Positions 20,550 to 25,412 of a DNA stretch of 64,000 bases are shown here, piece by piece (within the stretch, counting starts at the first letter, position 1; the number at the start of each line of letters is the position of its first letter). The position numbers and the translations under genes are program-made. The DNA comes from Nitrosotalea devaniterrae (lineage in GTDB: Archaea; Thermoproteota; Nitrososphaeria; Nitrososphaerales; Nitrosopumilaceae), in NCBI GenBank assembly GCA_900065925.1, contig LN890280.1, forward strand, positions 612,451 to 676,450, given 5' to 3'. The notes beneath the pieces are model-generated. The model ran no database searches. It worked only from the letters and a program-made list of their open reading frames with translations, and had not been told where the DNA came from.

Positions 20550-23012
20550 ATGAAATTCATGCTAGTTCTGCTGCTAGCACTTTTTGTTTTGGGACCTGTA
20601 ACTGTATTTGGGGAAAAGGGGACAAATTTTGATAAAGTAAATTTTATCCAATACTCTGATGATAACACTGCAGTTGAAGAAGTAAAAAATGGTCATCTTG
20701 ACATTTACTATTCTGCAATTCCAATTGACAGACTTGATGACCAGTCAAGGCAAAACCTACAAGTATTCCAATCTGCTGGGACAAGCTACAGTCTTTTGAT
20801 AAACCCTGAAGTCTCTGAAAAGTTTAATCCCTTTTCCATACAACAAGTCAGGTTTGCACTAAACTATCTCATAGATAGAGATCTCATTGTTGATGAGGTG
20901 CTCAATGGTTATGGTACCCCGATGATATCTGCATACAAGCCATACGACCCTGACTATCTTTTGATACTGGGAGAATTACAATCATTTAATTTCAAACACA
21001 ATCCTGCACTTGCGGAAAAAATGATATCTGATGCGCTAGAAAAAGCAGGCGCGCAAAAAACTGGAGCAACTTGGTACTATAAATCAAAACCAGTCACTGT
21101 AACAATTTTTATTCGAAATGATGATCCTGTCAGAAAATCAGTTGGAGAAATTCTTGCATCCCAGTTGCAGGGTATGGGGTTTGTGGTGAAAAAAGACTAT
21201 GGTGACCTGACAAAGGCATTCTCTACTGTATATGGTTCTAATCCATCTGATCTAAAATGGAGTATCTACACGGAAGGATGGACAATTGGAGGGTTTGTGC
21301 GATATGATTCTGTTCTCACAGCTCAGATGTACTCTCCGTGGTACTCTAGCATGCCTGGATTTAACAATCCATCATACTGGAATTTCCAGGACCCAGAAGT
21401 TGATTCTTTATCAAAGGCAATATTTTTTGGAAATTTTACATCATCTGAGCAGCGTGCTAGTCTGATAAACCAGGCAGTTGACCGCGGGATACATGACTCT
21501 GTTAGGATATTTCTTGCATGCAAGACTGACCAGTTTATCGCAAACAAAAAAGTTGATGGAATAATCAATGACTTTGGTGCAGGGGTGACAAGCAGGTTTA
21601 CACCAATCAATGCAAGATCAGACTCTGACACGCTGACAATTGGCGTCAAAAAAATATCCCAAGGATCGTGGAACCCAATAGCTGGATTTGTTGATTCAGC
21701 AAGCCAACAGATTTGGGGTGCACTAAGTGACCCTGGAAGCTTCAAGAATCCGTACACTGGATATACAATTCCGGTACGCTCTAACTGGGAAGTTCATGCA
21801 AAAGGGCCTCTTGATAAAATTGATGTTCCATCTGATGCTATATTGTGGGATGCCTCAAAACAAAAGTGGGTCCAAGTGGGAACTGGAGCCAAGGCAACAA
21901 GTGAGGTGACATTTCATCTCAAGTTTGGAAACTGGCACAACAAGATGCCCATGGACATGAATGATGTTTTGTATGGAATTTATTTCATGTACCAATGGGG
22001 TGCAGACCAGACAAATGGCACCATGACATTTGATTCTGAATATTCTCCCAAGGCAAACCAGGCTGCAAAGACACTTGTTGGTGTGAGAATAACTGGAAAT
22101 GATACAATTGAGGTCTACCAAAATTACTGGCACTTTGATGCCGGCGAAATTGCAGACTCGGCACAGGTCTGGCCTGCAATGCCATGGGAGATGTTGTATT
22201 CCATGGAAAAAGCGGTAACTGATGGCAAGCTTGCATTTTCAAGATCAGACGCAGTAAGCAAAAACATTGGATGGATGTCATTGATAATACCAAATGATGC
22301 AAAAATCATCCAGGCAAATCTTGAAGACTTTGAAAATGAAAAATCCGTTCCGCCTGCACTTGCATTTGTCAATGATTCAAAATATTTCCAATCAAGGTAC
22401 AATGCTTCTACGTCATGGATTGAAGAGCATGGACATGCTGTAGTAAGCAACGGTCCATACTATCTTGACAGTTACTCTCCTGATGCACGAAAGATAACGA
22501 TAAAGGCGTTTGATGATTCCACCTATCCATTTGGTGCGGGATATTGGAAAAAATTCGAAGAGGTAAGCATGCCCAAGATACAAAGTGTCCAGGTGCCTAC
22601 AAGCATATCCGTTGGCACAAGACTTGACATTCCAATATCTGTGACTCCAAATGCTACTGTATACTATTATTTTACAAACCCGCACGGAAAGATAATTGAT
22701 GAGGGAAACCAGGCATCTCAAAATGGTTCCATGGTAATAACTCTCTTGCCTGAAAAGACAATGAATCTTGATCTTGGCTCAAATGACGTACAGATGTTTG
22801 TAGTATCTGATGCTGCATACAAGCCAGACATGTACCACTCTAGTTTTCTTGTAACTTCTGGACCACTCTTAATTCCTAGGGAAAGTATGATTGCAAATAC
22901 TGTACCACTTGAGACAAGTTCTGGATATCTTGTTGTGGGTCTGATACTTGCAGGTGCTGCTATAGCAATTGTACTTGTTGCAAAAAAGAGGAGAGCAATT
23001 CATGGGGTTTAA
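20550..23012 (+). CDS. ABC transporter substrate-binding protein, family 5, motifs in permuted order
   Basis: An 820-residue extracytoplasmic peptide/nickel-type binding protein with a signal peptide (residues 1-22) and a C-terminal helix (YLVVGLILAGAAIAIVLVA, about 793-812) that would anchor it. The first part (about 24-350) resembles the C-terminal half of family-5 binding proteins: VKNGHLDIYYSAIP, then QQVRFALNYLIDRDLIVDEV. The second part (about 360-690) resembles their N-terminal half: LTIGVKKISQGSWNP, VTFHLKFGNWHNKMPMDMND and VVSNGPYYLDSYSPD. The order is reversed relative to DppA/OppA. It overlaps the permease gene by eleven nucleotides. The ligand is unknown, probably an oligopeptide. 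Confidence 0.88.
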   Translation: MKFMLVLLLALFVLGPVTVFGEKGTNFDKVNFIQYSDDNTAVEEVKNGHLDIYYSAIPIDRLDDQSRQNLQVFQSAGTSYSLLINPEVSEKFNPFSIQQVRFALNYLIDRDLIVDEVLNGYGTPMISAYKPYDPDYLLILGELQSFNFKHNPALAEKMISDALEKAGAQKTGATWYYKSKPVTVTIFIRNDDPVRKSVGEILASQLQGMGFVVKKDYGDLTKAFSTVYGSNPSDLKWSIYTEGWTIGGFVRYDSVLTAQMYSPWYSSMPGFNNPSYWNFQDPEVDSLSKAIFFGNFTSSEQRASLINQAVDRGIHDSVRIFLACKTDQFIANKKVDGIINDFGAGVTSRFTPINARSDSDTLTIGVKKISQGSWNPIAGFVDSASQQIWGALSDPGSFKNPYTGYTIPVRSNWEVHAKGPLDKIDVPSDAILWDASKQKWVQVGTGAKATSEVTFHLKFGNWHNKMPMDMNDVLYGIYFMYQWGADQTNGTMTFDSEYSPKANQAAKTLVGVRITGNDTIEVYQNYWHFDAGEIADSAQVWPAMPWEMLYSMEKAVTDGKLAFSRSDAVSKNIGWMSLIIPNDAKIIQANLEDFENEKSVPPALAFVNDSKYFQSRYNASTSWIEEHGHAVVSNGPYYLDSYSPDARKITIKAFDDSTYPFGAGYWKKFEEVSMPKIQSVQVPTSISVGTRLDIPISVTPNATVYYYFTNPHGKIIDEGNQASQNGSMVITLLPEKTMNLDLGSNDVQMFVVSDAAYKPDMYHSSFLVTSGPLLIPRESMIANTVPLETSSGYLVVGLILAGAAIAIVLVAKKRRAIHGV

Positions 23013-24054
23013 AAAATTTCTTGTCAAACGCGCATTTACCATGTTTGGCGTACTGATGGCAACACTTCTTGTTACAATAATTCTCGTGGGCTCTAACATG
23101 GACTCGATATCAAAACAAAGTGCTGCCCAAGAGATACGACAGCAGGTAACCAACAACAAGAGTCTTCTTTCAAGTTTCAAGACAACAGAGCAACTTGATT
23201 CGTATATTGCAAATGAAGTAAAACAAAGGATAACTGCGCTTGGTCTTGACCAGCCATGGTATTCTCCTCAAAGAATTGGTCTATCTATGTACAAAATCTT
23301 GACACTAGACTTTGGACATGCCAAGTTTCTTACAAGCGACAGCGGCTCGTCTGATGTCCGGGATATTATAATCGAAAAACTTCCAAGGACAATACTTCTT
23401 TTTACAACAGCCACTGTCATTGTATCTGTACTTGGAATATTCTTGGGAACAGTTGCGGCAAGCAAGGTAAATTCTAAACTTGACAAGATAACATCTGGAT
23501 TTGCAATAATATCAAGCAGCTTTCCTGTCTGGTGGATTGGTGTACTGATGATCTTTGTCTTTGCATTTTTGTATCCAATATTTCCCGCAAGGGCAACCCC
23601 TGATCTTTCGGTGACTGATCCTGGATACTGGGGCTCACTCTTGTATCACATGGCGCTTCCCTTGATTACACTTGTAATCATTGGGTTTGGCTCTTGGGCA
23701 TACTTGGTAAGAAATTTCTTGGTCGGTGTACTCCAAGAGGATTTTATCATGGCAAAAAGGGCTGCAGGAATTGATGAAAAGCGCATACTATACTCACATG
23801 CGCTCAAAAATGCGGCACCACCAATAGTTACAATCCTTGCACTAAGCCTGTCTAGCTCCCTTGGTGGCGCAATAATAACAGAGGCTGTATTTGACTGGCC
23901 TGGGATGGGCAGGCTATATTTTGAGGCAATCAGCGTCTTGGACTTGCCTGTAATCATTGGTGCAACATATGTTCTGACTGCATTCTTTCTTGTCAGTGTC
24001 TTTGTGGCAGATGTCTTGTATGGATACTTTGATCCTAGGGTGAGAAGAGAATGA
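23002..24054 (+). CDS. ABC transporter permease, DppB/OppB-like
   Basis: A 350-residue inner-membrane subunit. It has the family N-terminus (KKFLVKRAFTMFGVLMATLL), a typical extracytoplasmic region, TILLFTTATVIVSVLGIFLG, and the cytosolic EAA-type loop near residues 250-275 (KRAAGIDEKRILYSHALKNA) that contacts the ATPase. The upstream frame is open to 22969, but the ATG at 23002 gives the usual start. Its stop overlaps the DppC-like start by four nucleotides. It works with the adjacent binding protein. No ATP-binding subunit gene lies in the window, so an ATPase must be encoded elsewhere. Confidence 0.93.
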   Translation: MGFKKFLVKRAFTMFGVLMATLLVTIILVGSNMDSISKQSAAQEIRQQVTNNKSLLSSFKTTEQLDSYIANEVKQRITALGLDQPWYSPQRIGLSMYKILTLDFGHAKFLTSDSGSSDVRDIIIEKLPRTILLFTTATVIVSVLGIFLGTVAASKVNSKLDKITSGFAIISSSFPVWWIGVLMIFVFAFLYPIFPARATPDLSVTDPGYWGSLLYHMALPLITLVIIGFGSWAYLVRNFLVGVLQEDFIMAKRAAGIDEKRILYSHALKNAAPPIVTILALSLSSSLGGAIITEAVFDWPGMGRLYFEAISVLDLPVIIGATYVLTAFFLVSVFVADVLYGYFDPRVRRE

Positions 24055-25412
24055 GTTTTTCATCAAAAGTGGTATGGAAAGAATTTTCACATAGCAAAAT
24101 TGGAATTGCGGGAATTGTAATACTTCTCGTTCTTTTTTCCATGTCTGCTATTGCGTTTGTAGCAATACCCCTTGATAGTTTCAAGACATGGAACGATCCT
24201 GCAAGCTGGTTACTATATCCAAAATCTGCCCAGCCTGCATGGGTCAACTATTTCCAGTCTGAAAAAATTCCAGAACACTTGATACTACACCCTGTAAGGT
24301 TATCACAACAAATTGGCCCAGTTAATCTTCTTACAGACTCGTTTACAGTAAATTACCGGTATGATGGATTTCCAAGTGATTTTATCTACCAGTATACTGT
24401 ACAATATAGCGGATCTCCTTTATTGCAAATGTCTGTGACAAGGCCTGATGGCATTGAGATGAATCTAGTCTCCACATCTTTGCCTTTTGCAAACTCTACT
24501 GTATCCTACAGCAGCATGATATTTTCAACACAGGATGTGATTGCAAAAAATGTTGCAAGCGCAAAAACAAAGTATGCCTTTTCACTTGATGATATGTCAT
24601 CTGAAAAAATTGTCTTCTCGCAACTTGACACAAACCAGATCCTAAAGGGCCAGTATGTTTTCAGAGTTCATTTGTATGATGTATCGGGCAAACCAGTCCT
24701 TATCAAGTCAAACTTGGTCTTGGGAGGCAAAGTCTATGGTATCATGGGAACTGATGAGCTGAGGCGGGACCTTTCAGTTGGCCTGCTCTGGGGAACTCCA
24801 CTTGCACTCTTTATTGGAATTACTGTATCAATTGGCTCTGTTGTACTAGGGCTTGTCTATGGTGTCTATGCTGGATACAAGGGAAGGGCAACAGATGAGG
24901 TGCTAATGAGATTCAATGATATCATTTATGTCATGCCTGCACTACCACTCTTGATTATCCTAGCAGTGACTATAGGCAACAGCATATTTCTAATGGTGGG
25001 CTTTTTAGTGGTCTTTGGTTGGGTGGGAATTGCAAAGGTATCGCGAAGTATGGCGTTACAGATAAAGACACTACAATATGTGGAAGCGGCAAAACTGATG
25101 GGACAAAAAGACTATAAAATAATATTCAAGCATATCCTACCGCAACTTTTGCCATATGCATTTGCAAGCATTGCCATTTCAGTTCCAGCTGCAATTACTA
25201 CTGAAGCGGGCCTGAGTTTTTTGGGACTGGGTGATCCAAGTTTTCCTACATGGGGTCAGATACTCCATGATGCAAGTTCCTATAGTGCGGCAGCACGTGG
25301 GATGTGGTGGTGGATACTGCCTCCGGGAATAATGATTGCAGTAACTGGGCTTGCATTTGTGTTCATGGGTCAAGCAATGGATGGCATCATAAATCCAAAA
25401 CTGCGGCGTTGA
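24051..25412 (+). CDS. ABC transporter permease, DppC/OppC-like, with large extracytoplasmic insertion
   Basis: The 453-residue protein is about 150 residues longer than common DppC. After helix 1 (GIAGIVILLVLFSMSAIAFVA, about 19-39) comes a polar region to about residue 235 (including TVNYRYDGFPSDFIYQYTV), predicted to lie outside the membrane. The standard OppC core then begins with GTDELRRDLSVGLLWGTPLAL and contains the EAA loop (EAAKLMGQKDYKIIFKHILP) and TEAGLSFLGLGDPSFPTWG. The extra domain may contact the unusual binding protein. The gene ends the three-gene operon. Confidence 0.92.
   Translation: MSFSSKVVWKEFSHSKIGIAGIVILLVLFSMSAIAFVAIPLDSFKTWNDPASWLLYPKSAQPAWVNYFQSEKIPEHLILHPVRLSQQIGPVNLLTDSFTVNYRYDGFPSDFIYQYTVQYSGSPLLQMSVTRPDGIEMNLVSTSLPFANSTVSYSSMIFSTQDVIAKNVASAKTKYAFSLDDMSSEKIVFSQLDTNQILKGQYVFRVHLYDVSGKPVLIKSNLVLGGKVYGIMGTDELRRDLSVGLLWGTPLALFIGITVSIGSVVLGLVYGVYAGYKGRATDEVLMRFNDIIYVMPALPLLIILAVTIGNSIFLMVGFLVVFGWVGIAKVSRSMALQIKTLQYVEAAKLMGQKDYKIIFKHILPQLLPYAFASIAISVPAAITTEAGLSFLGLGDPSFPTWGQILHDASSYSAAARGMWWWILPPGIMIAVTGLAFVFMGQAMDGIINPKLRR

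Follow-up and report, generated by a model that had tools for sequence, protein, structure and literature searches.

A circularly permuted family-5 solute-binding protein of Nitrosotalea devaniterrae and the probable repeated rotation of its subfamily

Solute-binding proteins (SBPs) of family 5 (Pfam SBP_bac_5, PF00496), to which the bacterial DppA, OppA, NikA and AppA belong, are promiscuous in their ligands. The closest solved relative of the protein described here is OppA of Thermococcus kodakaraensis (T. kodakarensis; 7fi3), which has the two halves of the fold in the canonical N-to-C order and whose entry title names a bound pentapeptide. Natural circular permutation reportedly occurred in another family, VKOR/DsbB, and the usual model for such events is a duplication followed by truncation. 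In the open-access literature we came across no report of SBPs that are circularly permuted in nature, and nothing on permutation in papers on archaeal OppA or archaeal peptide-binding SBPs; as far as the literature can be searched, natural permutants among the binding proteins of ABC transporters appear to be undescribed.

The window (the whole stretch of 64,000 nucleotides of N. devaniterrae DNA that was analyzed) encodes an SBP of 820 amino acids (ATG at 20550, TAA at 23010-23012; Table 1). It belongs to the same subfamily as T. kodakaraensis OppA, whose sequence is matched by its halves with E values from 1e-22 to 1e-42 and whose relatives are encoded in the same type of operon, SBP-oppB-oppC-oppD-oppF. 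Unlike the window SBP, T. kodakaraensis OppA has the canonical order and an insertion of ~45 amino acids that is found in Thermococcota, and its close relatives lack the C-terminal beta tail that the window SBP carries. With the bacterial family members the window SBP shares the fold family, its Pfam score lying above the gathering score, but compared with them the order of the halves is swapped, the first half is larger, and a C-terminal beta tail and a transmembrane (TM) anchor are present.

Table 1. Features of the SBP gene and the adjoining permease genes (window positions; residues are those of the encoded protein)
Feature	Position	Strand	Basis
Gene of the circularly permuted family-5 solute-binding protein, order P1	20550..23012	+	ORF, Pfam, phmmer, rotation control
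Signal peptide as judged from a hydrophobic N-terminus, residues 1-25	20550..20624	+	Sequence MKFMLVLLLALFVLGPVTVFG; variable in alignment A1
Second (C-terminal) half of the family-5 fold, placed first, residues 24-352	20619..21605	+	Pfam and 7fi3 match
New covalent junction, ancestral C-terminus to ancestral N-terminus, residues about 345-362	21582..21635	+	Bridged in relatives
First (N-terminal) half of the family-5 fold, placed second, residues 360-665	21627..22544	+	7fi3 match; 231-bit match after rotation
C-terminal all-beta tail, residues about 675-768	22572..22853	+	Strands in model; tail HMM
C-terminal transmembrane helix, residues about 792-818	22923..23003	+	Hydrophobic helix in model; anchors in archaeal relatives
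OppB-type permease gene	23002..24054	+	Pfam BPD_transp_1, E 7e-39; only OppB in genome
OppC-type permease gene, ~180-aa insert before the permease core	24051..25412	+	Pfam; core from residue 231

From the N- to the C-terminus, the protein consists of a signal peptide, the second half of the family-5 fold (residues 24-352, containing NPFSIQQVRFALNYLIDRDLIV), the first half (360-665, with the motifs LTIG, VTFHLKFGNWHNKMPMDMNDV and NGPYYLDSY), the beta tail and the TM anchor. Its sole Pfam domain is SBP_bac_5, which aligns residues 24-247 to profile positions 145-349 (E 1.8e-27), so that the protein opens with the part that forms the second half in other family members. The score of 96.9 bits against a gathering score of 32.4 satisfies membership of SBP_bac_5 by sequence; the canonical order of the halves is not met. 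A phmmer search against the PDB returned 7fi3_A as the best solved relative, in two reversed blocks, with residues 369-662 matching chain positions 18-311 (i-E 1.2e-25) and residues 35-272 matching 330-593 (i-E 2.4e-22); with profile A1 as query the two blocks were stronger (1e-42 and 2e-30). Against an HMM of canonical-order relatives the unrotated protein likewise gave two matches, of 126 bits (hmm 53-344 to residues 369-660) and 99 bits (hmm 357-624 to residues 27-267), and rotation of the sequence at residue 355 merged them into one match of 231 bits (hmm 53-623). As a control, rotation at points away from the junction split the match again.

The window SBP meets what defines a natural circular permutation, namely swapped segments from one parent that become collinear with it upon rotation, and unpermuted relatives exist (canonical SBP_5 proteins in the class, and 7fi3). 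Judged from these alignments, the window SBP is a family-5 protein in circularly permuted order. A preliminary description of the locus had proposed this from the motif order alone; the swap it noticed is borne out by the Pfam match, the 7fi3 blocks and the rotation control, its estimates of the half borders (24-350 and 360-690) were accurate, and the predicted structure and the collinear conservation of the order agree with its reading. Two findings would have spoken against that reading, a collinear match of both halves to one full-length family-5 protein and an N-terminal lobe within the leading half of the chain, and neither applies: the order of the matches is swapped, and there is no such lobe.

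Structure prediction, which the preliminary description had suggested as a check, gave a single confident domain for residues 24-675 (AlphaFold with 90 relatives, alignment A3; pLDDT 94.9, pTM 0.92). Foldseek searches with this model returned SBP_5 structures, 7fi3 at the top, in alignments mostly of 310-395 columns; the coverage is partial because the alignment is sequential, as expected for a permutant. The model predicts a complete SBP fold formed by the permuted chain, although no permutation-aware superposition supports this. Relative to ordinary family-5 proteins, the chain is cut between 'NpnYWg' and 'pkidkivfki', immediately behind the NGPYxL motif region of the first half, and a short linker connects the ancestral N- and C-termini. 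This junction (residues about 345-362) is bridged collinearly in the 22 rows of alignment A1 and in all 65 of the 65 classified ORFs of the phylum. Because the chain starts at the strand after NGPY and the first half ends there, the signal peptide and the anchor are attached at sites that differ from those in canonical SBPs. The strands of the beta tail and the TM helix appear in a separate AlphaFold model made from 22 close relatives (pLDDT 68). An HMM of the tail matches the C-terminal regions of many relatives, and bacterial members end in a comparable stretch. The anchor, which had been called unusual, is common among archaeal members, and we rejected it as a special feature of the window SBP.

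The SBP gene is tightly linked to two permease genes. The ATG of oppB, read from the sequence, overlaps it by 11 nucleotides, and oppC in turn overlaps oppB (ATGA). Co-encoded OppB and OppC, together with oligo_HPY ATPases of the OppD/OppF type in the genome, meet the gene-content criteria for an Opp/Dpp importer, whose binding and import of peptides is inferred. Relatives of the SBP, in all of the four chain orders described below, adjoin OppB-OppC and mostly also OppD-OppF (SBP-oppB-oppC(-oppD-oppF)); the exceptions are L352, L364, L369 and L370, which have no opp genes in the stretch fetched, and L355, whose permeases lie on the opposite strand. The genome of the window contains a single SBP_5, a single OppB and two oligo_HPY ATPases, the latter at L351:6170-9315 (G000:C1:1042169-1045314), about 407 kb from the window operon; that these OppD and OppF serve it is inferred by elimination, as they are not adjacent. 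Their separation from the permeases is unlike the arrangement in most relatives examined. The insert in OppC (residues about 40-230, window positions 24168-24740) separates the first TM helix from the permease core, and could be an extracellular docking domain. It had made the permease appear unusual, a view we do not share: a long N-terminal part of about 245-290 residues before the core is present in all operon relatives examined (about 400 in L357 and L358), also with canonical-order SBPs, and is a constant trait of this transporter family.

We consider it very likely that the window SBP binds substrate for an Opp/Dpp-type ABC importer and has a fold that was permuted anciently and rotated again in Thermococcota. 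The permuted order, the complete predicted fold, its conservation, the operon linkage and the single-copy partners are observed; ligand, docking and transport are inferred without biochemical evidence. Once folded, the receptor would trap peptides between two lobes in the usual way, with its C-terminal helix fixing it to the cell surface. It would hand its ligand, most likely oligopeptides, to OppB-OppC, and transport would be driven by the distantly encoded OppD/OppF ATPases. The peptide ligand is an inference by analogy, extrapolated from T. kodakaraensis OppA at about 24-30% identity. A transport receptor for a nickel complex, a sugar or another SBP_5 ligand is possible, if doubtful: the window SBP weakly resembles the NCBIfam models of NikA and OppA alike, comes near none of the cut-offs and reaches no NCBIfam equivalog cut-off, but the closest solved relative binds a pentapeptide.

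The permuted order is widespread. The permuted SBP was present in 57 of the 61 genomes of the same family, collinear in nearly all of them, and we rejected an ORF artefact or frameshift on this ground; its closest named relative is in Candidatus Nitrosotalea (86%). A profile search matched 177 of 250 genomes of the phylum, and half-specific HMMs classified every one of 65 ORFs as permuted, in a sample that leans to permuted forms since the search profile is itself permuted. With the canonical-order protein (7fi3) as query, only half-matches and none spanning both halves were found in the phylum among the matches listed. Ordinary canonical SBP_5 paralogues coexist in the class. When named archaeal and bacterial genomes were scanned and the hits classified, 74 loci were permuted and 5 canonical, all 5 in Thermococcales. 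The permuted loci lie in Thermoproteota and Baldrarchaeota among the archaea and in Thermotogota, Atribacterota, Spirochaetota (including Brachyspira isolates), Halanaerobiales and Chloroflexota (Dehalococcoidia and Thermomicrobiales) among the bacteria. This ancient spread led us to reject a recent chimera. A plasmid search returned distant canonical C-terminal halves only.

Within Thermococcota, the chain occurs in four circular orders, which we mapped with L203 as a ruler (L203 numbering throughout). P1 is the order of the window SBP. P0, the canonical-looking order that includes T. kodakarensis OppA, consists of residues 441-743 followed by 22-450. In P2, residues 321-748 precede 28-322, the cut lying inside the insertion specific to Thermococcota, and in P3, residues 688-748 precede 28-684. 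The N-terminal piece of P3 is short (33-47% identity over 34-67 residues) but has the NGPY motif, and the cut points of three P2 assignments (L343, L346 and L348) are slightly different or uncertain. Both P2 and P3 contain the P1 junction as well as the canonical junction. In one P2/P3 pair (L336 and L309), the signal peptide and the anchor are alike almost letter for letter; P2 and P3 genes can also lie in orthologous operons (OppB 83%, OppC 76%, OppD 95% and OppF 93%), and once rotated, the cores of the best-matching P2 and P3 proteins reach 70-77% identity. One Thermococcota ORF of 2085 amino acids (L329) contains two P1 units in tandem. Tandem fusions of SBP units do occur, then, but L329 has not been shown to be an ancestor or intermediate of any permutant.

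To reconstruct the history, sequences were rotated to one order and generic canonical SBP_5 proteins were used as outgroup. In the rooted trees the subfamily forms one clade with P1 basal, and all Thermococcota forms make up one nested clade (support 100/100) within which P0, P2 and P3 arise, P0 itself with support 100/100; eight order changes are needed. Holding P0 with the outgroup was rejected on a careful tree of 62 rows (AU p 1.8e-5) and was borderline on a quick tree of 89 rows with long branches (AU p 0.0501). These AU tests were named after the first tree had been seen, and the deep root rests on distant outgroups. Independently of the tree, the insertion of ~45 amino acids is common to Thermococcota forms of all orders and absent elsewhere: the spacing between two motifs is about 70-82 residues in most non-Thermococcota P1 proteins and about 111-135 in most Thermococcota proteins regardless of their order, by a crude measure that misreads some rows. 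On the rooted trees, with the larger one borderline, P1 would be ancestral to the subfamily. The basal position of P1, the nested Thermococcota clade and the shared insertion together make the canonical order of T. kodakarensis OppA look like a reversion, that is, a secondary re-permutation.

We think it probable, on these grounds, that one receptor family was permuted repeatedly: once anciently, in a lineage now spread over archaea and bacteria, and several times in Thermococcota, where the core would have rotated between a signal peptide and an anchor that were kept, without a change of operon locus in some species; T. kodakarensis OppA would be a reversion. That the canonical order of Thermococcales is instead ancestral to the subfamily, with a single permutation afterwards and few secondary changes, would fit the canonical order of ordinary family-5 proteins and the borderline test on the 89-row tree, but we regard it as improbable given the rejection on the 62-row tree, the fully supported P0 clade inside the Thermococcota clade, and the insertion that P0 shares with Thermococcota P1, P2 and P3 and with nothing else. 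Slightly less plausible still is a surface sensor or scavenger that binds peptides without importing them. The C-terminal anchor, the fusion of one Thermococcus relative with a protein kinase, and the position of the ATPases outside the operon in the window genome could be taken that way; the overlaps of the SBP gene with oppB and of oppB with oppC, the full operons conserved elsewhere, and the lack of a second SBP_5 or a second OppB in the genome oppose it. That the halves come from two distinct family-5 proteins is conceivable, as each is SBP_5 and paralogues of this kind occur side by side in the class, but it can practically be dismissed, since the halves share 7fi3 as best canonical relative, sum to one collinear match once rotated and are predicted to fold as one domain, and since P2 and P3 hold both junctions, as rotations of one ring do. 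The preliminary description had also considered a fusion of two truncated copies, which is no separate alternative to permutation if the copies derived from a single gene, being then the usual way in which permutations arise.

The rotation of a single gene, our preferred reading, would begin with a single permutation basal to the subfamily. Its most likely route, which is inferred, is an in-frame tandem duplication whose outer halves were subsequently lost. In Thermococcota the core would then have been rotated again several times, with the signal peptide and the anchor kept at the ends, to give P0, P2 and P3. Circular permutation is a natural event here as in VKOR/DsbB, but the present case differs in concerning a two-lobed extracellular receptor with several rotations, some at orthologous loci. 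The permuted SBP is carried by most of the ammonia-oxidizing archaea sampled and by many thermophiles. The rotations in Thermococcota, some in orthologous operons and with core identities of 70-77%, provide natural pairs for testing the origin and tolerance of permutation. There is also a warning here: for a large archaeal SBP family, motif order and annotation of the halves one at a time are misleading. The solved archaeal OppA probably does not represent the order of this family.

Some Thermococcota relatives have further architectures. In place of the anchor, four P2 SBPs (L340, L341, L342 and L343) have a domain with DTSGFSAGDDITIVAMG or a similar sequence at its end, which may be a different mode of surface attachment. 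Three others (L330, an ORF of 2891 amino acids, L331 and L332) have the SBP unit inside a very long surface protein, and in L330 long repeat-rich parts precede it. A Thermococcus sp. MAG encodes a canonical-order SBP with a TM helix and, behind it, an entire protein kinase domain (L207:2301-6644, + strand). The kinase domain was tested in this protein only (PF00069, E 3.6e-48), which looks like an archaeal peptide-binding receptor kinase; similar ORFs of ~1450 amino acids are present in three further genomes (G505, G519 and G550).
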